NCBI GenBank assembly: GCA_028751875.1
Contig: CM054167.1
Span: forward strand, 24,799,105-24,863,104
Source: Rapana venosa
Taxonomy: Eukaryota; Mollusca; Gastropoda; Neogastropoda; Muricidae
Reading direction: 5' to 3'
DNA length: 64,000 nt
Part shown: one piece after another, positions 20,398-61,624 of the stretch
Numbering within the stretch: position 1 is the first letter of the stretch
Layout: every line of letters begins with the position of its first letter
Program-made: the position numbers and the translations under genes
The notes under the pieces: model-generated
What the model was told of the DNA's origin: nothing
The model's database searches: none
Seen by the model: only the letters and a program-made list of their open reading frames with translations

Positions 20398-20399
20398 TT

Positions 20400-36110: not shown

Positions 36111-36164
36111 TACATACAACTTCGTTTTTGCTTTTTAAAGATATTTTTTATTATCCGTCCCTTC

Positions 36165-36389: not shown

Positions 36390-36390
36390 C

Positions 36391-38350: not shown

Positions 38351-38359
38351 CTCAATGAG

Positions 38360-39133: not shown

Positions 39134-39164
<31 letters not shown>

Positions 39165-39840: not shown

Positions 39841-39841
39841 C

Positions 39842-41340: not shown

Positions 41341-41349
41341 TTTTATTTT

Positions 41350-41755: not shown

Positions 41756-42559
41756 ACAAGGAACCGTGGGGAGGGGAGGGGGGGAGGGTTGGTGTCCAGA
41801 ATCCATGTATGAACTGTAAAATTGAATGAACGTGACAGGCTGTGAAACAGTGTCACTTCTTGCACAGAGACTTGACTTAACATGATAGGCCGTGAGACAA
41901 TGTCAGTTCTTGCACAGAGACTTGGTGTGTCTCACTGTGTGTGTGCATGTACATGTGAAAAGAAACTGGAATATATGTGTTTGAACAGAAACATGTGCAA
42001 GTACCTGTACTTAAATGTTTGGAAAAATAAGACTCGGGGGAGGGAGGGAGGGAGTGGGGGCTTGTAAAAATAACTTGCAGGTAATTTGTGTGTGTAGTGT
42101 GTGTGTGTGTGTTTTAGGCTTACAATTCTTGGGGGGAGAAAGTTTCCATGACAGGACAGTGGGGCACCAAATTATAAGCGATAAAAATTCAGATAACATA
42201 GCACATGGATTGAAAAGGCAGACATTTAGAAGAAGAAAAGGATAGGCAGATACTGTAATGGATTGAATTTATGTTGGTTTGATTTCTTATACTTCCGCAC
42301 ACACGCGCACGTGCGTGCACATATACGCGCATACACACGCCCATGCACGCACACACTCGTACATACACTTGCATGCAATGGTGTTTTTCCTTAGTTTTTG
42401 TTTTATAACATTGTATTCCCAAATGGGTGTGTGTGTGTGTGTTCATGACATTTTTATTATCAATGTGCCTGTCAGTATTGTAATTGCCCTTCATGGGATG
42501 ATTGAAGTGTTTTTGACTACACACACACACACAGAGTCAAACATGCACTTTCTCTCTCT

Positions 42560-42598
<39 letters not shown>

Positions 42599-42815
42599 CG
42601 GAGTCCACACACACACACACACACACACAAATGTGCACTCTCTCTCTCTTTCACACACACACACACACATACACACACATACACACACACTGCCACCACC
42701 ACCACCACCTTTAAAATAAAGATCTCCCCCCCCCCCCTCTCCCTCCACCTCTCCCCTCCCTCTCCCTCTCTCCCTCCCTCTCTCCCTCTTTTGTTCTTGG
42801 GATAAAGGAGGTTGC
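41756..42815. repeat. Microsatellite-rich stretch upstream of the cassette gene
   Basis: Contains (GT)n at about 42090-42112 and 42426-42441. The dispersed box cctgtcagtattgtaattgc with cttcatgggatgattgaagt is at 42466-42505, in the same orientation as near 44455. Mixed (CA)n/(CT)n tracts occupy 42517-42690 and a C/CT-rich tract 42725-42790. If the gene at 43.4 kb has upstream exons, this is its intron. I see no convincing exon here. Confidence 0.6.
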
Positions 42816-42829
42816 TCTGTTTTGCAGGA

Positions 42830-43439
42830 GGAGGCACCCTGGTCGAGTGGTTTAGGCGGTCGACTCGTGATCCAGAGGTCGCGGGTTCGATCCCGCTCGG
42901 CTCGGTGTTGTGTCCTTGGGAAAGACACTTTACTCCTATTTTCCTCACTCCACCCAGGTGTACAAGTGGGTACCAGCTCTGCTGGGGAAGTATCTGGCGA
43001 CAGACTAGCGTCCTGTCACAGGGGTGGTGGAAAAACCATCAGTTCGCTTAACGCTACAGAAACCGGGATAAGCTCCGGCTGTATGGGCCTTCTGGCTGGA
43101 AAGAACATACTTTACCCAGGTGTACAAGTGGGTACCAGCTCTGCTGGGGAAGTATCTGGCGACAGACTAGCGTCCTGTCACAGGGGTGGTGAAAAACCAT
43201 CAGTTCGCTTAACGCTACAGAAACCGGGATAAGCTCCGGCTCTATGGGCCTTCTGGCTGGAAAGAACATACTTTACCCAGGTGTACAAGTGGGTACCAGC
43301 TCTGCTGGGGAAGTATCTGGCGACAGACTAGCGTCCTGTCACAGGGGTGGTGAAAAACCATCAGTTCGCTTAACGCTACAGAAACCGGGATAAGCTCCGG
43401 CTCTATGGGCCTTCTGGACCGAAAGAACATACTACTTTT
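42830..43439 (+). repeat. tRNA-derived SINE with threefold tandem body, in an intron end
   Basis: A tRNA-like head (tggtcgagtggtttaggcgg with A box, gcgggttcgatcccgc with B box) is followed by gttgtgtccttgggaaagac. A body unit of 161-162 bp comes next, beginning cccaggtgtacaagtgggta at 42953, 43115 and 43276. Exact 14-bp direct repeats tctgttttgcagga flank the insert (42816-42829 and 43440-43453), a target-site duplication that contains a splice acceptor. The three body copies are almost identical, so the amplification is recent relative to the SINE. Confidence 0.85.
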
Positions 43440-43451
43440 TCTGTTTTGCAG

Positions 43452-44212
43452 GATCTCCGCTTGGACGCCTAAGGCGCCGTCGGTCTATGTCCGACTTTGA
43501 CATCGTGATGATGGAGCAGGACCTGGCCGCAGAGATGACCAGGTTATGGGGCCGGCCGGCCAACCACACGGTGGGGGAGGTTGTATTGTGTGACCGTTGC
43601 TTAATCCCAGCTGAACGGGTGTTTGTAGTCAGGCCCAGGGTCTCCCTTGATAGTCATACTCGCCCGTCTCTGGTGACAGGCCTTAGTAGTTCCGTGGCTG
43701 CCCGCACACAGGAAGACAGCACCGCATTCCACACTGCAGACAGCACACATTACGCTACAGGTGTGGAACCGGCTGGGGAGGTGGAGGGGGCTCAGGAGGG
43801 CGCTGGCCCTCCTGAAGTCTTTCCTCCACCCCTCCAGCTTGATCCGCACGACAGATCTCCACGCCCGCAGTCAAGCCCAGACCCGACACAGTTACAACAG
43901 CACGCACAGCCGTCGCCTAGTGGTAGGTGGGTGCATTTGTTGCCTCACTCTTCTCCAGTGGCAGGTCCGTCTAGGCCAGACACGTCTGTGCCTTTACCTT
44001 CAGTTCAGCTTTTTGTGGGGGGCCTGGCCCAGTCTCCCCAGCCTGTTGGGACGTCGACGCCGAAAGAGAAACGCTCACCACAGCCAGGGCAGCCCATGCA
44101 ACGCCTCTGGACCAGTACCACTGTGCCATCGACGATCCACGTGACATCGCCCTCGGCAATCAACTTGGTGGAGGAAACGGAGGAGCTACCAGAAAGCCAT
44201 GCTCAGGCGCAG
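43452..44212 (+). CDS. Cassette gene, first visible exon (unknown function)
   Basis: Bounded by the acceptor ttttctgttttgcag (to 43451) and a donor CAG/GTCAGT at 44213. The frame is open across the whole exon. It enters in phase 1 (two bases, then TCT CCG), has a Met at 43487, and leaves in phase 0. From that Met, residues 1-50 are mixed in composition with a CDRC pair (35-38), and residues 55-188 are Ser/Pro/Gln-rich and probably disordered. Residues 190-242 carry STPKEKRSP...RLWT and LVEETEELPE, which resemble the third exon (STPKVKGTPP...RLWT, MVVDEP). A first Met inside the exon is possible if the gene starts here. No family is recognised. Antisense frames are shadows. Confidence 0.6.
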
Positions 44213-44631
44213 GTCAGTGTGCGTGTGTGTGTGTGAATAGTATGTGTGTGTGTGAATGTGTGTGTGAATAATACATGTGTGTGTGTGTGTGTGAATGTGT
44301 GTGTGAATAATACATGTGTGTGTGTGTGTGAAGTCAAAAACACCCTGTGTGTGTGTGTGTGTGATACTTTTATTAGTAGTTACCTTGGAATGTTCATGCC
44401 AATATGAAATTTAGCTTGCTTGTGTCTTTCGAGATAATGATACGTATCATTGTGCCTGTCAGTATTGTAATTGCCCTTCAAGGGATGATATATAAAAAGT
44501 GTTTTTGACTTGATAAATGTGTGCATGCATTTATATATTTTTTTATCTTATTTTTTAAATTTTGACGACATATGGAATAAGCGCTCGTTTGCTTGTTTAC
44601 ATCCAGTCCCTGTGTGTATGCGGTTTTGCAG
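44213..44631 (+). other. Intron 1 with (GT)n and a dispersed box
   Basis: Starts GTCAGT and runs into several (GT)n blocks (44219-44363). The box cctgtcagtattgtaattgc plus gtgtttttgact is at 44455-44512. From about 44565 an antisense SINE follows (aataagcgctcgtttgcttg, acatccagtccc). Confidence 0.6.
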
Positions 44632-44751
44632 ATTTTGTCACCCACGCCCACCAGCACACAAGGGCCTCCTCCTCCAAAGAGCCCTGTGCAGATGGTTGTG
44701 GAGGAGACGGTGCAGGAGACGGTGCAAGAGAGTGACCTTGGACCATTCCAG
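44632..44751 (+). CDS. Cassette gene, exon 2, partly derived from an antisense SINE
   Basis: Acceptor gcggttttgcag (to 44631) and donor CAG/GTCAGT (44752) enclose 120 bases, 40 codons, phase 0 at both ends. The product has PTPTSTQGPPPPKSPVQ followed by MVVEETVQETVQ and ends DLGPFQ. The first half, to about 44690, aligns with antisense SINE sequence (compare ttcccaccagcacacaatgg at 41437 with cgcccaccagcacacaaggg here). The splice acceptor itself lies in the SINE. A second in-frame acceptor (ccctgtgcag, to 44691) would give a 20-codon exon without the SINE part. Resembles exon 3 at the MVV(E/D)E segment. Confidence 0.55.
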
Positions 44752-44865
44752 GTCAGTTGATGGGTCAAGCTGCGTGTGCATGCGTGTGTGTATATGTGTC
44801 AATGTATACATTTGTACGTGCATTTCTTTTTTTTGAAGTTTTATTTTATTCTTTTACTTCTAGGA

Positions 44866-45226
44866 TAATGGAATAAGCACTCATTTGCTTTTTTTTATGC
44901 AAACATCCAGGTTCCTGTGTGTATGTTGGTTTCATAGATTTTGTGATCCATTCCCACTGGCTCACAGTGGCCTACTTTTCCAAAAGGCGGAACATGTTAT
45001 AATGTTTGTGCAAGATGTTCTGCGTGTGTTTGCACTTGAGACCTTGGTTTATAGTCTCATCCGAAGGACTTTGAAGATTGGGGGGGGGGGGGGGTGTCGG
45101 GTTCAGTCAATGCTGATGGTAACTTGGGGGGGGGGGGGCAGGCAGGCAATCCCTTTAACTGGATTTGAACCCATGTCAGCAGAGCACAATGCACAAAGCT
45201 CTAACCACCAGGCTATCCCATCATGC
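44866..45226 (-). repeat. SINE, antisense, full length (family 1, type-1 tail)
   Basis: Plus-strand order: 3' end ggataatggaataagcactc, acatccaggttcctgtgtgt, cccactggctcacagtggcc, gtgcaagatgttctgcgtgt, agtctcatccgaaggac, two G runs (45080-45094, 45126-45138), then the B-box complement and the A-box complement ctctaaccaccaggctatcc. It lies in intron 2. Confidence 0.85.
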
Positions 45227-45332
45227 ATACATGTGTGTGTATGACAGTATACAGTGTGTGTGTGTGCGCATGTGCATGCGCGCGTGCATGTGCCTCTTTT
45301 AATAATTATGGATTTGACTTTGTTTCAGGAAA

Positions 45333-45500
45333 TTAAGACAGGTTTGAATCTGTGGCTTATGGATGTGTGTACAGATCCAGTCCATGGTCTTTAGCATAGC
45401 ATACTGTGTGATTATTAAGACAGGTTTGAATCTTTGGTTTATGGATGTGAGTACAAATCCAGTCCATGGTCTTTAGCGTAGCATACTGTGTGATTATTAA
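45333..45500 (+). repeat. 82-bp tandem repeat
   Basis: Units start with ttaagacaggtttgaatct at 45333 and 45415. A third starts with TTAA at 45497 and resumes after an inserted element at 46923-47006 (gacaggtgtgaatctgtggc ... gcatactgtgtg). A possible acceptor (tttgactttgtttcag, to 45329) precedes the array, similar to the acceptor before exon 4, so a lost exon is conceivable. Confidence 0.85.
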
Positions 45501-46922
45501 CCCTCTTGTTGTTGGATTCTACAGAGCTAAACTGCCTGTAGATTTTGAATTCTTTGCAGGTTTTCTACCTCCATCTGACTTACTTTACTCCTAAGGCAAT
45601 TGTGTGTGTGCATGACAAGTTATCAAGCTGAAATTTTGTCACAAGCTAGGCATGTCTTTGTACTTGCATTTAGGCGCAAGTTCATGTGTCTGGTCACCAG
45701 ATGTCTTGTCATTGTCACCTTATTTGTCACCAATCACAGGTAAAAATATGGTATATATGATATAACAGCAAATCCTGCATGGATTTGACAATAGTTAAAG
45801 CATATTAGCGTCGAATAAGGAAGTGATACCCAGCTGATGTGTTTACCAATAGTTATGTGCAATAGTACTTCAAGGATGTGTCACACAATGTCCCCATAGC
45901 ACCTGTTGTTTTATGGTATGTCTCGAGGAGACAGAAGTTTTGTTTAACTATTTTTTCTTTTGAAAACAAGTCATATTCAATCAACATGTGACCTTTATAC
46001 TGCAGTTCATATCTGCGTGTGCTACCACGTTTGTTAAGTGTACAGAAGTGTATTATTGTACATGACTGTCACACTGTCACCATTGTCACAGCACAGGTGT
46101 GACAAATTCGAAACAACACAGAACTTCTGTAACTCTACAAAATTTTAATGTTGGTAGTCTCTAAAGTAGTCGTAGTGGTGGCACAGGGTCACATCACATC
46201 ACAAAAAGCACAAATTATGGATGTGTGTTGGGGGGGGGGGGGGGGGGTTACCCATTGCTCTCACCTGTCGAACCTTGGCAAACGGAGACCTATTTTATTT
46301 TCCTTCTTGCTATTTTCATTATCAGCATATCTGTTTGTTTCTGCCATTGCAGTTTCAAAGCAAAAGTGTGGTAATAATGAGAAAACAGTCAAAAGGCATC
46401 AAGCTTTCAGGCGTCTATGTAGCACAGGTCAGGAATGTGCCATGTAGCACGTTATTTTCTGGCTCACTCTTCTCCCTAACTGCAGCATTTCCTTCCTCCT
46501 CTTCCTTGTAATCGTTTAATATCGGACTAACTTAACAATTCTCATTCAAATGTTTCTACTTCCAAGACAATAACATTCAATTTATCGTCTCGCTAATCAG
46601 ATGAATCATCTGCTACGAAAGAAAACGCCATTTTTTTCCGCCACGCTGCACCATTGAAAAGCATTCTGGTCGCTGGCTGTTATTTCTTCCTTCCCTCCCC
46701 ACTACACGCATGTTAGTGGTCTAAATTTATCACTGGCATCCTCTGACACCCTCCCTGCATCGCCCCACCAATTTTCAGACACATAGTGTGAAAACCACGA
46801 GATCTGTGTGTGATGGAAAAGTACTGCCCACGTGGGCAGCACCAACTGTCGGCTACGGTCGTATTGGAATCTAGCAGCAGCTGCCGTTACTGTCGGCTGT
46901 GGCTGGATTGGGGACAAGAGGG
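45501..46922. mobile_element. Non-autonomous piggyBac-like element
   Basis: Flanked by TTAA at 45497-45500 and 46923-46926. Ends are CCCTCTTGT... on the left and its inverse ...ACAAGAGGG on the right, the TTAA target and CCC-starting terminal repeats typical of the piggyBac superfamily. The empty site is present in the neighbouring 82-bp repeat unit (tgattaTTAAgacagg at 45410-45424). The 1422-bp interior has no transposase frame. It contains a run of 18 G (46230-46247) and only short open frames without recognisable domains. It is therefore a non-autonomous copy moved by a transposase encoded elsewhere. Confidence 0.8.
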
Positions 46923-47105
46923 TTAAGACAGGTGTGAATCTGTGGCTTATGGATATGTTGTGTACAGATCCAGTCCATGGTCTTTAGCAATAGCATACTG
47001 TGTGCTGGCAGACCTCTCTCTGTGTTGTACCGTGTCTTTGCCTTTCATAGGATGACAGCGCTACGCTGTGCAGTAGTACCTTTGTGACTGACCCACTGTG
47101 TGCAG

Positions 47106-47325
47106 GTGCAATCCACCCAGCAGTAGTACCTTTGTGACTGACTGACCGACTGTGTGCAGGTGCAATCCACCCAGCAGTAGTACCTTTGTGACTGACTGAC
47201 CGACTGTGTGCAGGTGCAATCCACCCAGCAGTAGTACCTTTGTGACTGACTGACCGACTGTGTGCAGGTGCAATCCACCCAGCAGTAGTACCTTTGTGAC
47301 TGACTGACTGACCGACTGTGTGCAG
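47106..47325 (+). repeat. 54-bp tandem repeat carrying a splice acceptor in each unit
   Basis: Four units of 54-58 bp, each starting gtgcaatccacccag and ending gactgtgtgcag, begin at 47106, 47160, 47214 and 47268. The exon itself begins with the same words at 47326. Each junction is a possible AG acceptor (47105, 47159, 47213, 47267, 47325). Reading on from any but the last gives GTG CAA TCC ACC CAG CAG TAG, an immediate stop. Confidence 0.85.
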
Positions 47326-47508
47326 GTGCAATCCACCCAGTCATCATCTTCGGCTGTCCCAGGCCCTGCTGCCTCACCTGTGCCGGTGGCCGTGTCCACA
47401 CCCAAAGTCAAAGGCACACCACCAACGGGCAAGGCCAAGCGTCTCTGGACCGCTCAAGAAGTGTCGTCCATTGCCATGGTGGTGGATGAGCCTGTGGGAC
47501 AACAGCAG
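47326..47508 (+). CDS. Cassette gene, exon 3
   Basis: 61 codons, phase 0 at both ends, between gtgtgcag (to 47325) and the donor CAG/GTCGGT (47509). The product starts VQSTQSSSSAVPGPAASPVP, has STPKVKGTPP and RLWTAQE at residues 24-45, and ends MVVDEPVGQQQ. The STPK...RLWT block is shared with the end of the first exon and the MVV.E block with exon 2. This is what tandem exon duplication would leave. The intron start (gtgaactggtcaagtgtgtg) resembles that of intron 2 (gttgatgggtcaagctgcgt). Confidence 0.6.
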
Positions 47509-47524
47509 GTCGGTGAACTGGTCA

Positions 47525-47572
47525 AGTGTGTGCATGCGTGTGTGTGTATGTGTGTGTGTGTGTGTGTGTTTT
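47525..47572 (+). repeat. (GT)n tract at the start of intron 3
   Basis: Mixed tgtgtgcatgcgtgtgtgta followed by (GT)n. Comparable tracts follow the donors of exons 1, 2 and 4. Confidence 0.85.
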
Positions 47573-47596
47573 AATAATGAATACAAAATTGTTTTA

Positions 47597-47908
47597 GAAT
47601 TGTGGACAAGATCAAGAATGAGGTGATCAGAGACATGGTCGGACTAACACCAATTCTCCACCATATCGAACAACAAAGGATCAGGTGGTTTGGTCACCTC
47701 ACTAGAATGCCGCCCAACCAACCAGCCCTACGGGCATACACCACCAAATACAATGGCTGGAAAGCCAGAGGTAGACCAAGGAGACGATGGAGTGACTCCG
47801 TGGCTGACACCCTGCAAGCCCATGACCTGTCACTACATCAAGCCTCCCGCCTTGCTGCAGACAGACGTCTGTGTCTCCCCGCGACGTCGAAGGGCACCAG
47901 CGGCAGAT
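47597..47908 (+). mobile_element. LINE C-terminal fragment in intron 3
   Basis: An open frame of about 100 codons contains IRWFGHLTRMP and GRPRRRWSDSVADTL, the standard C-terminal end of many LINE ORF2 proteins, followed by a stop and an A-rich/GAAA tail (47907-47931). It is 5'-truncated but its frame is intact, so it is a fairly recent insertion. Confidence 0.75.
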
Positions 47909-47999
47909 GAAAGAAAGAAGAAGAAAGAAATTGGGGAAAGTAGCCTGTTGGTGTGTTTGGCCTGGGGCAGGTTTGGAGGAAGGCGTGGTTGCCCCACTG

Positions 48000-48685
48000 T
48001 AGGTGACTGACCATGGAGTTGAGGGAGTGATAACCCGCCACACAACTCAGTCTTTTTGCAATGGAAGTGCGAGATATGTGCATTGTCATCAGCAAACTGC
48101 TTGCTTCTCTGAAGTGCAGTTATTATGTCCATTGTAGGTCACTTCTGTTGATCTCTTTTTTCAAGGTAAACATGCTTTTGCTGCGTCAGGGTATTGAGAA
48201 GTCGGTTTCGCTGAAATTCTTCCCGATTGTGAATGGTTTGCATTTTGAAGTGAATCATCGGCATTGGACTGTTGATATAAATGCTAATGGAGTTCGTTTA
48301 TGCTAAATTATTATTTATTGTTATTTTGGGTCATGTTGTTGTCAATCAAGAACGCATTATGGGGGAAGGGCCACACTGCTATCGCATATCCATGGAGCAG
48401 ATGGACTGCAGTGAGATAATTTCTTATAACACTGTTTCATTGGATAGCAGGAATCCACTCCGACAGTAGTAGTTATTTGGCAGGTAGCTATGTGATGAAT
48501 TCTTTTGAACACATCTCCTTGTTGGTGGTCTTTACACATAGCTGCCAATCATTCCATTTTTTTACCCTAAAGTTTTCTGTGTTATAGCTGTGATTCCAGT
48601 CTTCCGGTCTTTGAGAAAATTTAAACGTTTACAAAATATAATAATAAATAAATAAAAAATCTGCATAAAGTGAGTAGAATGTCAA
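48000..48685. other. Intron sequence, nothing recognised
   Basis: AT-rich, no repeat or coding evidence. Confidence 0.4.
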
Positions 48686-48689
48686 TGTG

Positions 48690-49010
48690 CATGCCAGTTT
48701 ACAATGCCAGTCACCAAGATGTTGAAGAAAGGTTAAACACAAATTCTGGTAGTTATGCCTGTCAGAAGTTCTCCAATGCAAGAAGGATTTTCCGTATATG
48801 GATCAGTTTTGACAAGTTCTGCCTTCTGAAGTGCTATGTTCTCGTATGATTTTAAACTTTGGCATGGTGGACGAAATGACATTACTGCACATGAGAAGAC
48901 CAGTTGTTTATCTCTATGATTTTGGCAGAGCAGATATGATTTCTGCTATCCTGCTATGTTGCTGTGCCAGTTGCTTAAGAAATATGATCTTTTTGCAAGT
49001 TTATTCAGCT
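48690..49010 (+). repeat. Intron 3 segment paralogous to intron 4
   Basis: It aligns with 50735-51075. Shared boxes are caatgccagtcaccaagatg / aaatgccagtctctaagatg, acattactgcacatgagaag / gattactgcacatgagaaga, tctctatgattttggcagag / tctctacgattttggtgtag and tgctgtgccagttgctt / tgctatgccagttgctc. Divergence is substantial, so the duplication is not recent. Confidence 0.75.
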
Positions 49011-49022
49011 TATTCTTAAATG

Positions 49023-49180
49023 CAGACAAAAATTTGAAGGACTTTTGGGGCAATGGAGTCAGCAATGATGTTAGCTCCAGGGAAAAAAATGCCCTTTATT
49101 GGGAGTCACAGGGGTGGCTCAAACCCAGGTTGTCAGAATGCGAGTACAATGCTCCACCAGGCTGTCCTCTGTGTGTGAAT
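49023..49180 (-). repeat. SINE head fragment, antisense
   Basis: Plus-strand boxes ggggcaatggagtcagcaat, gatgttagctccagggaaaa, then caaacccaggttgtcag (B-box complement) and atgctccaccaggctgtcct (A-box complement). The 3' part is missing. Confidence 0.7.
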
Positions 49181-49194
49181 GTGTGTGTGTGTGT

Positions 49195-49790
49195 GTGATG
49201 CATATTGTAAATTTATGTAAAGTGATAATGAGTAAGCAGTTATGTGCTTTATTACATTCATTGGCAATTATATAATTATAATTATGGTAGTAAAGATGAG
49301 AGGGATGTTTGCTTATTCTTAGGGCGTGTGCATGTGTGCGTGCGAGTTTGCAGGTGTGGTTGGGTTTTGTGTTTGTTTTTTTATTCAGACTCTATTTTGG
49401 AGGATTTTAAGTGTTATTTAGTTATTGATTGGTCATGTAGGTGTTGGTGTTTTGTATGGCTGAGATATTTTACTGATACTTATTTATAACTGGGTGTTTG
49501 TCCACATAGTTCATCAGTTGTTTTTTCCTAAGGCATTTTGTCATCCTGTGTCCAAAAGAGAGAAAAGAAGGCTGCCTCTAAGTGTTTGGTGTTCGAAGAG
49601 ACCAAGAACAACAATAAAACCCAAGAGAGAGACAGAGAGCTTATTAATTGACTAAGTGTGTGAAAAACATGATAAATGGATAGAAAAATTGTAGCATCAT
49701 ATTTTGTCAGATATTTGACTACTAGTGGTGTAGTGCATGTCGAATGGAGGCTGTCAAAAATGATCATTTCTTTCTCCTTGTTGAGCAAAA
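49195..49790. other. Intron 3 remainder
   Basis: Short (GT)n tracts (49175-49197) and AT-rich DNA; no other feature. The dispersed box tgcctttcatgggatgatta precedes exon 4 at 49814-49833. Confidence 0.45.
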
Positions 49791-49855
49791 TCCCATGTGT
49801 TGTACAGTGTCAATGCCTTTCATGGGATGATTACAGTACCTTTGACTTTGTGCAG

Positions 49856-49906
49856 GAGGCACCTATGCCTGTGGATCAACCAGCCCTGATAGAAGTACCT
49901 GTTGAG
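49856..49906 (+). CDS. Cassette gene, exon 4 (17 codons)
   Basis: Between acceptor tttgactttgtgcag (to 49855) and donor GAG/GTGAGA (49907). Phase 0 at both ends; reads EAPMPVDQPALIEVPVE. A microexon of this size is weak evidence alone. Support comes from the acceptor context: tttcatgggatgattacagt and acctttgactttgtgcag match the contexts before exons 3 and 5. Confidence 0.5.
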
Positions 49907-50167
49907 GTGAGAATAAGTGTGTGTACTAGTGCATGCATGCATGTGTATGTGCGTGCATACATGCACAATATTTGTGTGCATGCATGTGTGTATTGTGTAG
50001 TCTTTGAATTAACGTCCATGCACATTATTTGATTTGGACAAAGATTTGTGTGTGTGCGTGTGTGCATACGTGAGCATATGCTGGTGTGTTCGTATTGATC
50101 TTGTAACGAAATTGTTTTAGAATGTTAGATTGTAATCAATAGCTTAAATTTATGAGTGTAGGGGGAG

Positions 50168-50530
50168 AGGTGGCCTGGTGGTTAGTGCAGAGCTCATGGC
50201 TTAACAGCTGGAGTTTGACAGCCTGTTAGAGGGGATTCCCGGGGGTTGATTCAGTACCGACTCCACTGCCCCCAAAGTCCTTCAAATGGGACTGTAGACT
50301 TGAAACATCTTGCGCACACGCTTAAAACTGTTTTGCCATTTGGAAGAGTAGGCCATTTATTGCCAGTAGAAACAGAAGACAGAATTTAGAACTAGTGCAT
50401 GCACACTGGTGTCTTGTTTGTACAACGTCCCCAAACGTTGAAATGCGGCCATCTTTTGATGGTGGGCAGAAACAGTTGTATATGCAAAATCTTGCCCTTG
50501 GTGAAGTTCATGATTCTAGCTGAACAGCAA
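50168..50530 (+). repeat. SINE, family 1 head with type-2 tail
   Basis: Head gtggcctggtggttagtgca, body gattcagtaccgactccact, catcttgcgcacacg, agagtaggccatttattg, tail gtccccaaacgttgaaatgc and cttggtgaagttcatgattc. Confidence 0.75.
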
Positions 50531-50734
50531 AAAATACAGTCCCTGGTCATTACCATTCACATTCATTCACATGGCTGCCAGCCTGTATTTTTTTCTTTCC
50601 ACATAATGTTTCCAGTAGTTGCAATTCCGATTTTCTACTGGAAATATAAAAAAAAAAAGTTCTGGTGTCTGAAATTTCATTTAAAAAAAAAGACCGTAAA
50701 AGAGAAACAAAGAGCACAGAAATCGAGTGTGTCA

Positions 50735-51075
50735 GCTCGTGTGCTGGTTTCAAATGCCAGTCTCTAAGATGTGGAAGAAAGGACCAAAAATGAGACAGTT
50801 GTGCCTGAGAGGAGTTTGTTCTCGAATACAAGGTAGCTCAAATAGCAGGAGTAGTTTTCATACATTGACCAGTCTCCACAGGGCAAAGGTCGTGCCTTCT
50901 ACTGCACTCTGTTTGTGCCCTTGTGATTTTTAAATTTTGTATGGCGGATTACTGCACATGAGAAGACTAGAGCTGTTCATCTCTACGATTTTGGTGTAGC
51001 AGTACTGACTTATCACCTGTCTTGCTCAGTTGCTATGCCAGTTGCTCAGATCTCTGACATTTTGTGAGTTTGTTG
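50735..51075 (+). repeat. Intron 4 segment paralogous to intron 3
   Basis: Counterpart of 48690-49010. It supports tandem duplication of an exon-plus-intron unit: offset between the two segments about 2.05 kb, offset between exons 4 and 5 2.24 kb. Confidence 0.75.
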
Positions 51076-51102
51076 CGCTGGTTCAAATGCATGCGATGAA
51101 GA

Positions 51103-51275
51103 CAGGATCGCCTAGTGGTTAGAGCATTGCACTTGCAATCCGATAACCTGGGATCGAGTGACTTCTAAGGCTTGTGTTCAAGGGAATTTTTCCCATGGAG
51201 TTAACATCATTACCAACTCCACTCCTTGGAAAGTCTGGATGAGGCTATAATCCGAAGATCCCATGTGCAAAGGGC
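51103..51275 (+). repeat. SINE head fragment (3'-truncated)
   Basis: Head ggatcgcctagtggttagag, gcactt..., then ttttcccatggagttaacat, cccatgtgcaaagggcaaga at the end. The tail is missing. Confidence 0.75.
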
Positions 51276-51487
51276 AAGACTTCAGTTGCTATGAAACAAA
51301 ATATGACAAAAATCATTCAGTTGGTGCACAACACTTACCTCTAAATAATTTTACATACTGATTTTGTACTGCATGAATGAGACACGATTAGTGATCTTTT
51401 GATTTCCACTGATGTGGCCACTTTGTTTCAGGTCGTATGACTCGTGCAGCCTCGTACAAGAAGCTGGGGAGGTCATGTATTGAATAT

Positions 51488-51806
51488 GAGATGGTATAGC
51501 CTAGCGGTTAGAACATTGCGCTCACAATTCCCGTTCAAGGGGATATTTCCCCTGGAGTTAACATCAGTGCAGACTCCACTCTCCCCAAAAAGTCCTTCAG
51601 ATAAGACTATAAACCGAGGCCCCATGTGCGAACGCATGCAGAACATCTTGTGCACACTTAAATCCTGTTCCGCTTTCGTAAGAGTAGGCCACCATGTGCG
51701 GGAGGGAACGAATGACAGAATTTACAAAACCGCATACACACGGGGACTGGATGTAAAAAAGCACATGATTGCTTATTCCATTATCCTCGATATAAAAGAA
51801 GAAAAA
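51488..51806 (+). repeat. tRNA-derived SINE, full length (family 1, type-1 tail)
   Basis: The cleanest copy in the window: gatggtatagcctagcggtt, ggggatatttcccctggagt, gactataaaccgaggcccca, catcttgtgcacac, taagagtaggccaccatg, acggggactggatgtaaaaa, ccattatcctcgatataaaa. The B-box region is shortened. Confidence 0.85.
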
Positions 51807-51937
51807 AAATCATGGTAAATGATTCTTTCCTAACTGCATAATCTTGTTCGGGAGATGCTCCTTTGACTTAAAAAAAAAAACTTTAAAAATGCTTGGGCTG
51901 TGCCCCTTGACCTCCACTTTTTCAGGAGAGGGGCACA

Positions 51938-51944
51938 CCCCCCC

Positions 51945-51975
<31 letters not shown>
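51938..51975. repeat. Poly-C tract (28 C) followed by poly-A
   Basis: 28 C at 51938-51965 followed by about ten A. It lies about 130 bp before the acceptor of exon 5. Confidence 0.9.
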
Positions 51976-52096
51976 ATTGTTTGGGAATTGTCAAGGGTTG
52001 CCATCTATGCTTACTGAGGGCCTGTCAGTGTTTGCTCAGTGTAATAATTGCCTTTCATGGAATGATAACTGTACCTTTGTCTCTGTGTGTTTGCAG

Positions 52097-52284
52097 GTGC
52101 ATGCGCCATTTGTACCACCACCTGCACCTCTACCTTTACCACCACCTGCACCTCTACCTGCGCCTCTGCCTGTGCCTGCACCAGCGCCTCTTGTTGCACT
52201 TGCGCCTATGCCTGCACCTCTACCTGCGCCTATGCCTGCACCTCTACCTGCACCTGCGCCTCTACCTGTGCCTCTACCTGTGCC
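52097..52284 (+). CDS. Cassette gene, terminal exon, part before the retrotransposon
   Basis: Acceptor ctctgtgtgtttgcag (to 52096), then phase 0 GTG CAT GCG CCA. It encodes Pro/Ala/Leu repeats of the type [15 protein letters not shown]. The exon is broken after 188 bases by a Ty3/gypsy element. As the sequence stands, the frame continues into the LTR and stops at 52469-52471, adding 62 LTR-derived codons. Without the element and one target duplication, the next coding base is 56401 and the frame is preserved. Confidence 0.6.
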
Positions 52285-52530
52285 TGTAGAGTTGTCATTC
52301 ACCCGAACACAACCACTACTAACACAGCTCGTGTGTTTCAATCGGTTATTATTGTGGCTCTTGAGTCTGGAACTAAAAAATCGTCCGTTGTCTTGTTATT
52401 GTCTACTGCGCATGCCCTGTGTATCAATTGCTAGGCAACGTCACGAAATTATTAACAACGAGGCTTTATAAATCTAAAACGTCTTTTCATGGAAATGAAC
52501 TAGAATGGATAATTGATGTACGACATTACA
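52285..52530 (-). repeat. 3' LTR of the Ty3/gypsy element
   Basis: 246 bp with TG...CA ends. Compared with the other LTR it holds an extra 43 bases (52331-52373), and its terminal 46 bases (52285-52330) are present at the other end only in inverted orientation. Confidence 0.9.
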
Positions 52531-52691
52531 ACCCTCCCCACCTTGAAAGAAAACTTCATGACTAGAATTGTTAAGAACCTGTGGCACATGGAATTAATAT
52601 AGAAATACTTTAACATAAAACCAATAACAGAATTGTGCAACTTTTCCTAACAATCTGTTCAACATTCTTTCTTTGAAAACAGAAATCTAGA

Positions 52692-53744
52692 CTATTTTGT
52701 AATATAGTCTTTCAGGTATTGTGGGCTGATGCAAGTTCTTCTGGACCGTCGCACTGGCTCTGGGCTGGTACTGGGCAGAAGAGCTTCTTCGTTGACTTCA
52801 GGGTTTGGAGTGGATCTGGCTGAAGAATCTTCTTCTCTCCTTTCATCAGATGGTGAAGGTCGTGCAATCTTCTTGAAGAATGAGGAGTTGCGGGTGATCT
52901 GCACTGTTCCCTGTCCGGCGGTCAGCATGGATCCTTTCTTTGCTGTGACTTGCAGAGGTACTGGATTATAGTATGGTGTCAGTTTGTTTTCTTTCTTCTG
53001 ACGGACAAGCACAGTGTCACCAATTTGGATGTTGGATTCAGAAGCATGACGTCTGTTGTCTGCATAGATTTTCATTTTCTCTTTCATTGCAGCATCATGT
53101 TGACGGATTTCCCTATCAAGCTTCTGTGATGATTTTCCAGCTTGGTCGTTAATTCCAGGGAGTTGGATCCTTATCTTTCTTCCATAGAGAGCTTCGGCTG
53201 GGCTTACACCAGTACTGCTGTGTGGAGTAGCACGGTAGTTGCGAAGGAACTTGTAGAGTTCTTGGCGCCATACCTTTCCTTCTACCTGGGCAGCTTGGAT
53301 GGTTTTCTTCAGCATGGGCATACATCTTTCTGCACCACCATTGGCTTGTGGCCAGAGAGGCGTGACTTTGCGGTGGTGAAAACCTAAATACTGAGCAAAT
53401 TGTCCAAATTCACGGCCATTGAATGGGGGTCCATTGTCTGTTTTCACAATGTCTGGTATGCCATGTCGAGCAAATATAGAGTCAAGTTTGGGAATGGTAG
53501 CGTTTGCACTGGTAGAACTGACAATTTCAACTTCAGGAAACCGTGAGTATGTGTCAGTCACGACAAGAAGGTATTCTCCTGATGGAAATGGTCCGGCAAA
53601 ATCAAGACTGACTTCAGACCATGGGTGATGGGGTAGTGGGGACATGTGAAGAGGTTCACATGAGTGATCTGGAGTCGTAGATAAGCAGGCAAGGCAGGAC
53701 TTGACATTTGACCCCACTAATCTGTCCATGTGTGGAAACCACAC
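52692..53744 (-). CDS. Ty3/gypsy integrase
   Basis: 350 codons, the longest intact domain of the element. The catalytic triad is visible: Asp in SLDFAGPF (about residue 49), Asp in KTDNGPPF (about 102) and Glu in QANGGAERCM (about 138). The C-terminal domain reads IGDTVLVRQKK (about 245-255), and the end is RRSRRTCISPQYLKDY. In intact relatives it inserts element cDNA and makes short target duplications such as the 5-bp one seen here. The zinc-binding HHCC segment lies in the preceding frame. Confidence 0.85.
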   Translation of the reverse strand: MWFPHMDRLVGSNVKSCLACLSTTPDHSCEPLHMSPLPHHPWSEVSLDFAGPFPSGEYLLVVTDTYSRFPEVEIVSSTSANATIPKLDSIFARHGIPDIVKTDNGPPFNGREFGQFAQYLGFHHRKVTPLWPQANGGAERCMPMLKKTIQAAQVEGKVWRQELYKFLRNYRATPHSSTGVSPAEALYGRKIRIQLPGINDQAGKSSQKLDREIRQHDAAMKEKMKIYADNRRHASESNIQIGDTVLVRQKKENKLTPYYNPVPLQVTAKKGSMLTAGQGTVQITRNSSFFKKIARPSPSDERREEDSSARSTPNPEVNEEALLPSTSPEPVRRSRRTCISPQYLKDYITK

Positions 53745-54340
53745 TTTCTCGGCAGCAGGTTCTTTGTCTTGACAATTCCTTGATGTCCTTCATGAGCAAT
53801 ATCGACTGTACGTTGCTGAAGAGCTTGAGGAATAACCACACGACTGTTGCGGAGAATGATTCCAGTATCTTCGCTGATGGACAGTTCATCCTTGATTGTC
53901 TTGAGTATTTGGAAAAAAGAAAACTCAACTGGACAATCCTTGGGGTTTACATGCCACTGGTTGAATTTGATTGCAGTTTTCACAGCTTGCAATGTCGGAT
54001 CATTTCTAGTTGCTTCGATGATGTCTTCTAGTGTCATGGCTTTAGGAACGGTGTGATCAATGATGAATTTGATGTATTCGTCAGCAACTTTCGACTCATG
54101 AATTGACTGTGTGTCAGCAGTTTGAACAGGATGTCGACTAAGAAAGTCAGCTGGATTGTTCTCTCCAGGCTTGTATCGAAGAACGAAATCGTAGGACTGG
54201 AGACGCAGATTCCATCTTTCGATTCGTGCAGACGTCTTCGATGCAGGATTGTTGTATATCCCTTCTAACGGCTTGTGGTCAGAGATAACGGTGAATCGAC
54301 GACCATACAGGTAAAGGTGAAAATGTTCACAAGACCACAC
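53717..54340 (-). CDS. Ty3/gypsy RNase H end and integrase zinc region
   Basis: 207 codons starting within RNase H (TVISDHKPLEGIY, LRLQSYDFVLRYKPGENNPADFLSRHP). It continues through a linker to IAHEGHQGIVKTKNLL, the His-containing start of the integrase N-terminal domain. A frame change near 53730 separates it from the integrase core. Confidence 0.8.
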   Translation of the reverse strand: MWSCEHFHLYLYGRRFTVISDHKPLEGIYNNPASKTSARIERWNLRLQSYDFVLRYKPGENNPADFLSRHPVQTADTQSIHESKVADEYIKFIIDHTVPKAMTLEDIIEATRNDPTLQAVKTAIKFNQWHVNPKDCPVEFSFFQILKTIKDELSISEDTGIILRNSRVVIPQALQQRTVDIAHEGHQGIVKTKNLLPRKCGFHTWTD

Positions 54341-54410
54341 AATGCTAGAGCTTCACGTTCTGTTTGTGAGTAGCGAGATTCCACATCCGTTAGCGCACGG
54401 CTAGCATATG

Positions 54411-54704
54411 CTACAATGTGAGAGGTGTTGTCCTTGTCACGCTGAGTGAGAATTGACCTAGACCATATGGACTAGCATCAACGATGACTTCCATCTCTCG
54501 ATCAGGGTCATAGTACTTCATGGTGGTCTGGCTTGTGAGTCGTGACTTGAGTTCACAAAACGCGTTCTCTTCAGTTTCTGTCCATGTCCACTCTGCATCT
54601 TTCCGAGTCAGATCTCGAAGTGGTTTTGTGATGGAGGCATACTGTGGAATGAACTTGGAGACATAGTTTGGGCAGACCAAGCAAACTGCGGATTTCTTTG
54701 CCAT
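54411..54704 (-). CDS. Ty3/gypsy RT-RNase H connection
   Basis: 97 codons: FIPQYASITKPLRDLTRK (RT connection), WTWTETEENAFCELKSRL and VIVDASPYGLG, the RNase H start with its catalytic Asp. Frame changes border it on both sides. Confidence 0.8.
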   Translation of the reverse strand: MAKKSAVCLVCPNYVSKFIPQYASITKPLRDLTRKDAEWTWTETEENAFCELKSRLTSQTTMKYYDPDREMEVIVDASPYGLGQFSLSVTRTTPLTL

Positions 54705-54748
54705 TGGTAGGGGTAGCTGCTTTCTGTATAGCCTCTACTTTCTTTGGA

Positions 54749-55432
54749 TCAGGGGATACTCCATCTTTGCCAAAATGAAGCCATAGAATTCAATGTGATC
54801 CTTGTTGAATTCACACTTGCTTTGTTGAGAGTAAGTCCCTTTTCACTGAAGCGAGAAAACACTTTCCTGAGAGCAGTATCATGTTCTTCTTGAGACTTTC
54901 CGTAGATGAGAATATCATCACTTGTATTGAGTGTACTTGGAATGTCCACAAGTAATTCAGCAATGTGATTTTGGAAAATTTCTGCTGCTGAAGTAACTCC
55001 AAAATTCAACCGTTTGTACCGCCTGAGACCAACATGAGTTGAAAATGTTGTGATATTTCGTGAGTCTTCTTCCAATTCTAATTGGTGATATCCTGAATTC
55101 AAATCCAGTTTGCTGAATACTTTCGCTTGATTCAGTCTCATGAGGATATCATCAATCGTTGGCATGATATGACGAGTACGTTCAATAGCTCTATTTGGAT
55201 GTCTCATGTCAACACAAAGACGTATTTCATCCGGTTTCTTTGGTTTGGGTGCAGCGACAATAGGTGATACCCAGGGTGTAGGACCATCAACTTTCTCGAT
55301 GATGTCCAGGCTTTCAAGGCGTTGAATCTCAGCTTCCACTTTTTTCCTCTTTTGAAATGGAATCCTTCGATGGGGTTGAGCGACTGGTTGTACTTCTTTA
55401 TCAATGTACAACTTCACTTTTACATCCTTCAA
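54749..55432 (-). CDS. Ty3/gypsy reverse transcriptase
   Basis: 227 codons with LESLDIIEKVDGPTPWVSPI, LCVDMRHPNRAI, FSKLDLNSGYHQLELE (first catalytic Asp), FGVTSAAEIFQ and SDDILIYGKS (the double-Asp box). Typical positions for a Ty3/gypsy RT. The reading frame is lost shortly after the thumb. Confidence 0.85.
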   Translation of the reverse strand: MKDVKVKLYIDKEVQPVAQPHRRIPFQKRKKVEAEIQRLESLDIIEKVDGPTPWVSPIVAAPKPKKPDEIRLCVDMRHPNRAIERTRHIMPTIDDILMRLNQAKVFSKLDLNSGYHQLELEEDSRNITTFSTHVGLRRYKRLNFGVTSAAEIFQNHIAELLVDIPSTLNTSDDILIYGKSQEEHDTALRKVFSRFSEKGLTLNKASVNSTRITLNSMASFWQRWSIP

Positions 55433-55914
55433 CTTCCCATGCCTTGAAACAATTCTGGATATTCGCTACAAAGAACATCAGCTGTGGTGCGTTGCGATGC
55501 TGCAAATGCAAAACTGATAAGCTGAAGGCATTGAGCAGTTTTGGCACTCAAAAGATTTCCACTGCGAGCATCAGGGCTTGATTTGACAACAAAGAATGAT
55601 GCCTGTGTTTCTGCATTCTTGTACTTGACAACAGCATCAAACATACCCAGTACAACAAGAGGGGTGCATGTTCCATAAGCATAAATTGAAGTGGATGCAG
55701 GTTTCATCATGCATTGAGGTGTCAATGTTTGGAAAGTTTGTTCATCAATGATGTTGACAGAAGCACCAGTATCAATGAGAAATGGAACGGACTCACCAGA
55801 GAGATCCACGTTGACTTTGGGTGCTGCACCAGACTTCCCAGAAACACCAAACACGTATTCTTCATCAGATGAAAATTGAGTGTCTCTGCTTTGCTGAACA
55901 CTGTTGACTTTCAC
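55429..55914 (-). CDS. Ty3/gypsy aspartic protease
   Basis: 161 codons; the active-site triad is in PFLIDTGASVNIID (about residues 45-58). The frame overlaps the RT frame by four bases, as in programmed or accidental shifts. Confidence 0.8.
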   Translation of the reverse strand: MKVNSVQQSRDTQFSSDEEYVFGVSGKSGAAPKVNVDLSGESVPFLIDTGASVNIIDEQTFQTLTPQCMMKPASTSIYAYGTCTPLVVLGMFDAVVKYKNAETQASFFVVKSSPDARSGNLLSAKTAQCLQLISFAFAASQRTTADVLCSEYPELFQGMGS

Positions 55915-56161
55915 AGTGAAGAGCTGATTCCTTTGCTGAGGCTTTTAAAGATTTACCAGAACGACACACTTTTGCAAAATGTCCAATCTTGGAGCATAGA
56001 CGACAGGTTCTGTCTTTGGCAGGGCACTGCTCACGTGAATGTTGCTTGGCACCACACCATCCACACAGTCGTTGATGTTGATGTTGATGTGTCTGACTCT
56101 GGTTAGGACCATGATTCCAGCTTGTTAATGCATTCTTCGGGCTGAAGGATGATTTCTTCAT
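55865..56161 (-). CDS. Ty3/gypsy gag remnant with zinc knuckles
   Basis: 98 codons containing CGWCGAKQHSREQC and CRLCSKIGHFAKVC, two CCHC-type knuckles, the second with GHFAKVC. The capsid part that should precede them is absent. Only about 12 bases separate this start from the rearranged LTR segment, so the gag 5' end was deleted. Confidence 0.8.
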   Translation of the reverse strand: MKKSSFSPKNALTSWNHGPNQSQTHQHQHQRLCGWCGAKQHSREQCPAKDRTCRLCSKIGHFAKVCRSGKSLKASAKESALHCESQQCSAKQRHSIFI

Positions 56162-56172
56162 TCTATCGTATT

Positions 56173-56238
56173 GAGCTGTGTTAGTAGTGGTTGTGTTCGG
56201 GTGAATGACAACTCTACATCTGGCGACGAGGATGGGAT
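56173..56238. other. Inverted LTR end plus primer-binding-site segment
   Basis: Bases 56173-56218 are the exact reverse complement of 52330-52285 (terminal 46 bases of the other LTR). They are followed by tctggcgacgaggatgggat, which has the position and look of the sequence next to an LTR that binds the tRNA primer. The whole 66-bp block therefore points the wrong way relative to the coding region of the element. Confidence 0.85.
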
Positions 56239-56400
56239 TAAAAAATCGTCCGTTGTCTTGTTATTGTCTACTGCGCATGCCCTGTGTATCAATTGCTAGG
56301 CAACGTCACGAAATTATTAACAACGAGGCTTTATAAATCTAAAACGTCTTTTCATGGAAATGAACTAGAATGGATAATTGATGTACGACATTACAGTGCC

Positions 56401-57064
56401 TATGCCTGCACCTCTACCTGCACCTGCGCCTCTACCTGCACCTGTGCCTCTACCTGCACCTATGCCAGCGCCTCTACCTGCGCCTCTACCTGCACCTATG
56501 CCTGTGCCTCTACCTGCACCTGTGCCTCTACCTGCACCTGCGCCTCTACCTGCACCAGCGCCTCTACCTGCACCTATGCCTGCACCTGCGCCTATGCCTG
56601 CACCTCTACCTGCACCTGCGCCTCTACCTGCGCCTATGCCTGCACCTGCGCCTATGCCTGCACCTCTACCTGCACCTGCGCCTATGCCTGCACCTCTACC
56701 TGCACCTGCGCCTCTACCTGCGCCTATGCCTGCACCTCCGCCTATGCCTGCACCTCTACCTGCACCTGTGCCTCTACCTGCACATGCACCTGCACCTCTA
56801 CCTGCACCTCTACCTGCACCTGCACCTCTACCTGCGCCTGCGCCTGGACAACCTGGGGTGGCTGCCGGCCCTCAAAGAGCAGCACGGCGCCGTGGTCGGG
56901 CAGCTGCCCCAGGTGTGCCTACGCGCCGGTCAGAGAGGACGAGGCGCGTGCCCGAGAGGTACGAGGCAGTCGACTTCCGTACCCCGGAATATTTCCGGGC
57001 ACTGGAGCGGCAACGGCAAGCCCGTTCCCGACAGAGGAGGCGGGACAGACAGGCGGCAGTCTGA
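56401..57064 (+). CDS. Cassette gene, terminal exon, part after the retrotransposon
   Basis: Continues the Pro/Ala/Leu repeat ([19 protein letters not shown] and variants) to about 56850. A short C-terminal domain rich in Arg follows: [20 protein letters not shown], then [14 protein letters not shown] and [19 protein letters not shown], stop TGA at 57062-57064. Together with 52097-52284 it makes 852 bases, exactly 284 codons. At DNA level the repeat is made of cctgcacctctacctgcacc-type blocks, open in a second plus frame as well, so the repeat part alone is weak evidence. The Arg-rich end is not repetitive and argues for a real C-terminus. The [13 protein letters not shown] motif resembles the C-terminal tails of some retroelement polyproteins. 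Confidence 0.6.
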
Positions 57065-57116
57065 AGACGGTCGGTGGTGATGGGAGAACTGGTGGGGCTG
57101 CTGTGTGACAAGCGAG

Positions 57117-57936
57117 AGTTGTGTTCTTCTGCTTGCTTGATTGTCGTGTTTCTCCCAGGGGACGTTTGACATTGATGAGCCTTCTCCTCCCATCTCTCTC
57201 TGTTTTGAACTTCCTCCTTGTTTATGCCCCTTTCTCTAAGGTCGTCTGCAATACAGGCAGCCCAGGTTTTGCTAGGTCTTCCCTTCGGTCTCTTTCCATT
57301 CACTACGAAGTTCGTTGCTCTTTTTATGATGTGGTGGTCTGCTTTCCGTTGAACATGCCCAAACCAGCGCAGTCTATTGGTACTAGCTACAGACTTCACA
57401 TCATCAACTTTGCACATTCTCCATAGTTTATTCATGATCCTGTCTTCCCATTTGATCTTTGTCATGTAGCGTAGCATTCAGTTTTCACAGCTCAACAAAC
57501 GTTCGACGATTTTTGTGAAAACCCACGTCACAGAACCATACACGAGAACAGGTCTGATTCAGGCCTTGTATATCAGACAGCGTCTCTCTAGTGGGATTTT
57601 CTGATTTCCAAGCAGACTTGGCCAATTCTTTCTATTTCTTCCATGCACTCGCAATCCTGGTTCCGACAGCTAACTCGATTTTGCTTCGCAGCTCATCTCT
57701 CCTAGGTAGCAGAATTCGTCTACCACTTATATCTTTGCTTGTTCGAATTCTAGCTCCTTTCCTGCATCAGTATTGTCTTCATCCTTATTCATACAACTGG
57801 GGCAGACAAATACTCTGTCCTCCTTCTTCAGACTTTTGAGCTTTGAGCATCTTTTGTGACACCAATATTGACGGTCGGAGCATTCATTTTGATCAAATTG
57901 TTCCCTACACCTTTGTGGCAGACACCACATGAGTAT

Positions 57937-57969
<33 letters not shown>

Positions 57970-58680
57970 CATGGAATTTATAGTGGTTGCTCTCTGTGTT
58001 CTGCGATCTTTTCCAACTGTCATTGCTTTGGTCTTGTCAGCATTCACCTTCATTCCTCTGCATTCTAATCTCTGTTTCCAATTGCAAATCTTTGAGTAAC
58101 ATCATCACTGTTCTCAGCTACCAGTACTAAGTCATCAGCATACAGCAATTCCCAGATCTCTTCTGGCCTCTCCACTTCCCTGGATATTTCATTCATCACG
58201 AGGATAAAGAGCAGAGGGCTCAATGCGATCCTTGAAGCACTCCTACTTTTATCTCAAAGCTTTCTGATGTCCCAATTACAGTTTTCACTTTTGATCTGGA
58301 GTTCTTGTACAAAGTCAACCATTGAGATAGTGTGCTCCGGAACACCTTGTTTCCTCAAGGCCCATTGGATTGCCTTTCTGGGTACTCCATCAAAAGCTTT
58401 TTCCAGGTCAACAAAGATGAACGTCAAGCTCTTTTTCTTCTCCATATACTTTTCCTGTAGTTGTTTCACGATAGATAGTGCATCTATGGTTGATTTGCTA
58501 GCCTGGAATCCAAACTGTTTTTCATCAGTATTGCACAGGCTCTTCAGTCTTCTTTCCAATACTTTTTCCCAGATCGTCATGCCATGTTCCAGAAGCCTGA
58601 TTCCTCTGTATTTTCCACATACTTACTGTAGCCATCTTATGCCACAGTCAGCAGATGGAATGGTTGGGACGACCATGTAG
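57117..58680 (-). mobile_element. LINE fragment with RT and an RT-associated zinc finger
   Basis: Minus strand: RT at 58580-58254 (EKVLERRLKSL, FGFQASKSTIDALSIVKQL, FIFVDLEKAFDGVPRKAI). The catalytic segment lies at about 58140-58050 in broken frames. A Cys/His-rich segment at 57930-57727 (CSDRQYWCHKRCSKLKSL and FVCPSCM) matches the small zinc finger found after RT in some LINEs. The C-terminal region at 57477-57150 has RLRWFGHVQRKADHHI and GRPSKTWAACIADDL. An AAT microsatellite with the 'tatagtgg' box interrupts it at about 57938-57980. It begins 50 bp after the stop of the cassette gene. Confidence 0.75.
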
Positions 58681-58689
58681 ATGATGGAT

Positions 58690-61615: not shown

Positions 61616-61624
61616 CAGCTGCCT

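Follow-up and report, generated by a model that had tools for sequence, protein, structure and literature searches.

In mammals, many cases are on record in which a single mobile element has been exonized, and three published systems offer a comparison for the present locus. For the PEVK region of titin, many short proline-rich exons are described that encode a repetitive spacer, and exon duplication aided by long interspersed nuclear elements (LINEs) is reported (PMC6469411). Alu-derived exons of primates are described as nearly all alternatively spliced, mostly with low inclusion (PMC2562518, PMC8460874), and leucine-rich-repeat genes of Tetrahymena as rapidly evolving arrays of 90-bp exons that grow by equal-phase exon duplication (PMC6564038). 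The locus studied here lies in a 64,000-nucleotide stretch (the window) of the genome of the gastropod Rapana venosa (GenBank assembly GCA_028751875.1, contig CM054167.1, positions 24,799,105 to 24,863,104). There, an earlier reading of the letters alone (the original prediction) had proposed a five-exon host gene grown by duplication of exon-intron cassettes. We find it likely that the locus is instead a lineage-specific coding gene of a small dispersed family, whose splice acceptors were largely supplied by retroposons.

This gene shares with titin PEVK a repetitive proline-rich spacer, but titin has more than 100 such exons, which are far more alike, and the likeness implies no sequence relation. 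Likewise, the Tetrahymena exons are given as phase-2 and of one length, whereas those of the Rapana gene are phase-0, of unequal length and mostly without detectable mutual homology. Our searches of the open-access literature found no paper on transposable-element exonization in gastropods, and, for exonization with mollusc and SINE (short interspersed nuclear element), none that carries any of these terms in its title.

The gene model consists of the following segments, in window positions:

43452..44212, plus strand: exon 1, containing a CxxC motif and ending in the block RLWT...LVEE
44632..44751, plus strand: exon 2, 40 codons, phase 0-0
47326..47508, plus strand: exon 3, 61 codons, with the block STPK..RLWT..MVVDE
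49856..49906, plus strand: exon 4, 17 codons, identical at 51/51 bases in the paralogue on contig C14
52097..52284, plus strand: exon 5, first part, proline-alanine repeats
56401..57064, plus strand: exon 5, remainder, proline-alanine repeats and a conserved basic C-terminal block, with a TGA stop at 57062-57064

The predicted AG/GT borders hold for exons 1 to 4 and for the exon 5 acceptor at 52097, and coding lengths of 759, 120, 183 and 51 nucleotides for exons 1 to 4 place every internal junction in phase 0, as had been proposed. The start codon is likely the ATG at 43487, judging from the copies: a methionine stands at the equivalent position in the C10 paralogue and in the copy at C5:12806828, and a leucine in the second C5 copy. 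A search for upstream coding exons, using plus-strand open reading frames (ORFs) of at least 25 amino acids in 36000-43451, gave no match at an expectation value (E) of 1e-4 in 30-kb stretches of C10, C14 and C5.

The evidence that this is a gene comes from its paralogues. When the exon 1 protein was compared with the genome (2.28 Gb, 2004 contigs), six matches among 22 candidates, a lower bound, were found at five places: the window locus itself (C34), C10, C14 and two sites on C5. Identity over exon 1 is 72% for C10 and 54 and 60% for the C5 copies; the C14 copy (two matches at one place) contains stops. In C10 all five exons are open and encode 588 residues when exon 4 is ended at a chosen donor, GAA/gtacat, which differs from the donor in C34 and C14. 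All 12 indels separating C34 from C10 in the coding stretches compared, namely exons 1, 2 and 3 and the exon 5 C terminus, are multiples of three; among the 74 in intron pieces and the 5' flank, 14 are multiples of three and 60 are not. The ratio of nonsynonymous to synonymous substitution (dN/dS) is 0.56 for exon 1 (95% interval 0.39-0.81), 0.29 for exon 3 (0.13-0.59) and 0.10 for the last 62 aligned codons of the exon 5 C terminus (0.05-0.18); for exon 1 against C5 it is 0.35 from C34 and 0.30 from C10. As judged by these comparisons, the exons are shown to be coding and, where their length permits testing, selected, with the C-terminal block of exon 5 under strong constraint. Paralogues, indel pattern and dN/dS thus uphold the proposal of a host gene, and we regard this uncharacterized animal gene, known from its sequence, as real.

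The same measurements bear on the idea that the frames are chance openings in repeat-rich intergenic DNA. The low-complexity composition of the product (25% proline, 14% alanine) and its absence from databases would suit such an origin, but frame-preserving indels and the dN/dS values would not, and we consider it scarcely credible.

One feature of the constrained block stands apart. Synonymous divergence (dS) in 56864-57061 is 0.8-1.1, several-fold above the divergence of neighboring intron (K, 0.10-0.19), in all three pairs among C34, C10 and C14. Decay of CpG sites was considered as the cause and accounts for only part of the excess.

The acceptors of the gene point to mobile elements as their source. 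The motif TGCCTTTCATGGGATGAT (the acceptor word) has six copies in the window when as many as 3 mismatches are allowed, where chance would give 0.06; five copies lie along the gene, spaced by 1987, 2567, 2775 and 2235 bp, and the sixth is inverted at 58994. The segments concerned, together with insertions at the acceptors of exons 1 and 2, are:

42479..42518, plus strand: putative copy of the retroposon tail that carries the acceptor word, 5' of exon 1 and not used for splicing
42816..42829, plus strand: left copy of TCTGTTTTGCAGGA, duplicated over 14 bp as a target site, in which the older acceptor of exon 1 lies; exact match at 43440-43453
42830..43439, plus strand: SINE-like insertion of 610 bp with a 161-bp unit three times over, at the exon 1 acceptor; C10 has the empty site
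44445..44510, plus strand: putative retroposon-tail copy with the acceptor word, intron 1
44539..44682, plus strand: antisense SINE-like repeat, giving the exon 2 acceptor and about the first 50 nucleotides of that exon
47039..47325, plus strand: putative retroposon-tail word, then a 54-bp unit in about five copies, each ending in a cag/gtgcaatcc acceptor, of which only the last is open
49797..49855, plus strand: putative retroposon tail serving as exon 4 acceptor (genome matches, alignment, tree)
52045..52096, plus strand: putative retroposon tail serving as exon 5 acceptor (context shuffles, word search, alignment)

The original prediction held that the acceptors of exons 3 to 5 share a context, and this is borne out: over 85 nucleotides, the exon 4 and exon 5 contexts score higher than all 500 shuffles. 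For exon 3 the outcome depends on the site. The first acceptor of its array is matched against exons 4 and 5 by 0 and 2 of 500 shuffles, and the acceptor chosen in the original prediction by 13 and 14. Scores among the first exon 3 acceptor and those of exons 4 and 5 were reached by none of 111 control acceptor-like sites. The exon 3 acceptor of the window is displaced downstream by the 54-bp array, which is a single copy in C10 and C14. Exons 4 and 5 have their acceptors no more than about 50 bases beyond the acceptor word, and exon 3 in C10 has its acceptor 62 bases beyond it.

Searched against the genome, the exon 4 acceptor context gave eight matches. Four fall in the gene loci (C34, C10 and two in C14) and the others on C16, C26, C28 and C21, over 41-52 bases at 85-90% identity. 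Among seven aligned copies that are not acceptors, those at 58994 and on C16, C26 and C21 continue into a TTTGACTTGAC-like tail; the other three show only TTGAC. Because the acceptor word is found elsewhere with this tail, it looks like the end of a retroposon, presumably the 3' end of a non-LTR (non-long-terminal-repeat) element, and we interpret the dispersed end as the 3' tail of a retroposon. Alignment shows the acceptors of exons 3 to 5 at or just past copies of a dispersed repeat end.

For exon 2 a different element appears to be responsible, its acceptor falling, as alignment shows, within the antisense SINE-like repeat. The acceptor and the first half of the exon align with 11 copies of this repeat. 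At the acceptor position, 7 of the 11 read GTAAA and none reads CAG (one has TAG); exon 2 reads CAGA in all three gene copies. The repeat gave six further matches, found in three of six sampled 10-kb stretches, two of which neighbor the C5 locus. Part of exon 2 and its splice site thus lie inside an interspersed repeat, as in an exonized SINE, with inclusion in the transcript being predicted. Alu exons arise mostly from the antisense strand. As in Alu exonization, a SINE-like repeat would here have become part of an exon; exon 2 keeps its frame in C10, and the parallel implies no kinship with Alu. In the window, exon 1 has its acceptor in the right-hand copy of the 14-bp duplication TCTGTTTTGCAGGA. 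The software ARAGORN found no transfer RNA gene in the window; a tRNA-like head of the insertion at 42830-43439, and of a repeat at 51525-51809, was seen by eye only.

Several observations weigh against a selected gene assembled from repeated retroposon insertions. Acceptors of exons 3 to 5 form their own cluster (support 0.83), adjoining the C26 copy, and share GTACCTTTG, which was not seen in the seven other aligned copies. Cluster and shared motif therefore indicate either that one subfamily inserted repeatedly or that one tail was copied locally, and a single exonization with later local copying accounts for the cluster no less well than repeated insertion does. The splice sites themselves are read from consensus and from conservation in C10. 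The dN/dS of exon 2 is uninformative (0.21, with a 95% interval reaching 1.40), the exon being too short, and the two C5 copies of exon 1 give 1.38 against each other (0.55-6.01). In C14 the splice sites of exons 2 to 4 are kept, with exon lengths of 77, 190 and 51 nucleotides that put exons 2 and 3 out of frame, and the exon 1 frame is broken, 18 of 20 indels not being multiples of three. The gene is represented by one genome only, because no relatives were found in PDB, Pfam, IMG/VR or a set of 5.8 billion proteins (residues 1-253 and 588-654 scored), the mollusc share of which was not established, a limit on this negative. Finally, any role given to the protein is guessed from its composition.

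With respect to C14, frame-breaking indels make up 3 of 5 in exon 2 and 2 of 4 in exon 3, and exon 4 and the C-terminal block have no indels. The breaks may represent decay or poor assembly; long homopolymer runs around C14 exon 1 make an assembly error possible. Near the C5 copies of exon 1, the best match to the C-terminal exon within 50 kb reached only E 0.055.

We next consider the proposal that the gene was built up by duplicating a single exon-intron unit, roughly 2.2-2.5 kb long, in tandem. Parts of it stand. The STPK..RLWT block does recur in exons 1 and 3, with a score of 83 that none of 1000 shuffles reached, so that the tail of exon 1 is homologous to exon 3 at the protein level; the acceptor word recurs once per unit at the intervals given above, the regularity noticed in the original prediction; and the cluster of exon 3-5 acceptors with its shared GTACCTTTG would be expected under this scheme too. 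The predicted donor similarity is confined to exons 2 and 3 (0/500 shuffles as high), the other five pairs lying within the (GT)n background (48-182/500). Beyond this the homology gives out. The letters of the predicted MVV(E/D)E block are present in exons 2 and 3, but the similarity of these exons is at chance level (254 of 1000 shuffles as high), as it is for exons 1 and 2 (164), 1 and 4 (814), 3 and 4 (274) and 2 and 4 (726), so that neither exon 2 nor exon 4 significantly resembles exon 1 or exon 3 as protein; these tests covered exons 1 to 4. BLAST of unit against unit found no DNA match between the exon 1 and exon 3 units. The acceptor word also occurs on four other contigs.

Intron similarity had been offered as one test of the proposal. 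Units 3 and 4 can indeed be aligned over 458 columns with 63% identity, in collinear positions, but the segment is a dispersed repeat:

48602..49024, plus strand: dispersed repeat, intron 3 (unit BLAST, genome search, tree)
50660..51091, plus strand: dispersed repeat, intron 4, of the same family as the intron 3 repeat

The intron 3 segment has at least 43 matches in the genome (40 of 171 candidates scored). Of these, 39 lie away from the gene loci, at 37 different places, and the two top-scoring ones are 75% identical. In a tree of 14 copies, representing 8 of these 37 other places plus two copies from each of three gene loci, the intron 3 and intron 4 copies fall in separate groups (support 1.0 each) that are not sisters. 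The nearest neighbors of both groups are other genomic copies (0.89 each), and the nodes between have support of 0.68-0.84. Since the segment is dispersed and its copies in introns 3 and 4 are not sisters, it is best read as a repeat insertion and not as a product of cassette duplication. Neither the acceptor word nor the intron repeat was found in 60 kb of sampled sequence, a result of little weight because the intron repeat later proved to be dispersed.

At C5, exon 1 is followed by the same RLW..MVVEE block, which is present in four copies in an intronless array of 15-bp units. The block thus multiplies in this family, but by another route, since it repeats there without introns; exon 2 is not similar to the C5 block above chance (227 of 2000 shuffles). 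The second C5 copy of exon 1 lies with its 15-bp array (C5:12807260-12811499) between inverted repeats of about 290 and 360 bp, 90-93% identical and partly of low complexity. Neither homology between successive exons (1 to 4) nor locus-specific intron similarity was found, and growth by unit duplication is therefore mostly unsupported and, in our estimate, unlikely. More generally, sequence shared among introns in a repeat-rich genome is no proof of cassette duplication.

In the window copy, exon 5 is interrupted by an LTR element. The original prediction was wrong that the frame stays open to the stop at 57062: from 52097 it stops at 52471, within the following insertion:

52280..52284, plus strand: left copy of a 5-bp target-site duplication, GTGCC (second copy 56396-56400)
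52285..56395, minus strand: Ty3-like LTR retrotransposon interrupting exon 5, with ends TGTA...TACA (TG..CA)
55429-55944, minus strand: protease-like segment, with scores under the Pfam cut-offs
54749-55465, minus strand: RVT_1, Pfam match
53717-54352, minus strand: RT_RNaseH, Pfam match
52692-53789, minus strand: rve (integrase), Pfam match

Ty3/Gypsy elements are characterized by the order protease, reverse transcriptase, RNase H, integrase, by a 5-bp duplication and by TG..CA ends. The exon 5 element has the order reverse transcriptase, RNase H, integrase and paired LTRs with these ends and this duplication; it differs from a typical member in a small inversion in the right LTR and in coding sequence split among several separate ORFs. 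A further piece, 55865-56260, matched no Pfam family. The first 157 bases of the right LTR are identical to the left LTR (52285-52530), which argues that the insertion is recent. The pair shows 4 differences over a 168-base ungapped match, all within the final 11 bases, where the right LTR carries an inverted segment of about 46 bases. C10 has no such element in exon 5, and removal of 52285-56395 with one GTGCC lets coding resume in register at 56401 and run to the stop at 57062-57064. Splicing out of the element as an intron was examined and rejected: none of 35 GT-AG pairs (7 donors, 5 acceptors) gives an open frame, although GTAGAG...TTACAG does arise where the end of the element meets the target duplicate.

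These findings raise the prospect of a pseudogene in the window, dead or on the way to it, with C10 as the only copy that still makes protein. The element, with no in-frame escape among the 35 pairs, would have this effect, as would the additional exon 3 acceptors of the 54-bp array, use of an upstream one leading to VQSTQQ and then a stop (after six codons), and the insertion at the exon 1 acceptor. The compared indels relative to C10, however, are all in frame, and the LTR element, which arrived very recently, may mark a polymorphic allele. We place the pseudogene reading only slightly below an even chance.

A quite different possibility is that the exons belong to a transposable element that has moved together with its introns. 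Copies do lie on four contigs, and a C-terminal RRSxR..P motif resembles, by eye, one near the integrase end of the inserted element; retroelements often end in such motifs. Yet only six matches, as a lower bound, exist in 2.28 Gb, the gene protein has no Pfam match, and the C10 and C14 copies sit within long collinear segments. Homology to both extends upstream over 33.3-42.4 kb of the window, and to C14 also over 13.0-17.3 kb; on the 3' side it stops at the stop codon, except for a 139-base C14 match at 58623-58760. Such long segments fit segmental duplication, and we regard a mobile origin of the whole gene as very unlikely.

With regard to the surrounding sequence, the stretches collinear with C14 and C10 (12983-17438 and 33313-42439), a segmental duplication, are separated by unmatched sequence at about 17.4-33.3 kb. 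Directly past the gene stop, where C10/C14 homology ends, are LINE-like remains on the minus strand (57070-58700, with RVT_1 at 58254-58622); the frame at 56872-57477 matched no Pfam family. A minisatellite of more than 2 kb with TGAAGGTACTGCCTG-like units of 24, 39, 48 and 63 bp fills 61619-63861, with several frames open on both strands, and a 41-bp minisatellite unit occurs at 17437-17891, 20399-20643 and 33110-33309.

The protein is best read as proline-rich and mostly disordered, with a predicted basic C-terminal helix. Models of exon 1 from four sequences are unstructured, with a mean predicted local distance difference test score (pLDDT) of 36, a low confidence that kept them out of fold searches. 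In the C-terminal block, for which the C10 and C14 copies are 85-87% identical to the window, a basic helix is predicted at residues 40-64 of the modelled sequence, with pLDDT block means of 94, 95 and 87 from residue 41 when three sequences are used. From its composition and conservation, the protein might act as a flexible tether, the weakest part of our account, in which the conserved N-terminal CxxC segment and the basic helix would be held apart on a proline-rich linker of variable length. The helix would probably dock on nucleic acid or an acidic partner.

We envisage that retroposon insertions brought ready-made 3' splice sites, each of which could convert downstream sequence to a phase-0 exon and so extend the disordered spacer with the frame intact; in addition, local copying may have multiplied one acceptor that came from a tail. 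More tentatively, all four internal 3' splice sites could come from retroposons, one tail (TGCCTTTCATGGGATGAT followed by TTTGAC) serving as a reusable acceptor cassette for phase-0 exons that may act elsewhere in the genome, an extension that is possible but that we doubt somewhat. Mobile elements are already known to give rise to exons, and exons to be duplicated within disordered spacers; it is the concentration of retroposon-derived acceptors that appears unusual here. If this interpretation is true, a selected, paralogous gene with mostly retroposon acceptors would mean that exons can be gained step by step through repeat tails beyond the vertebrates.

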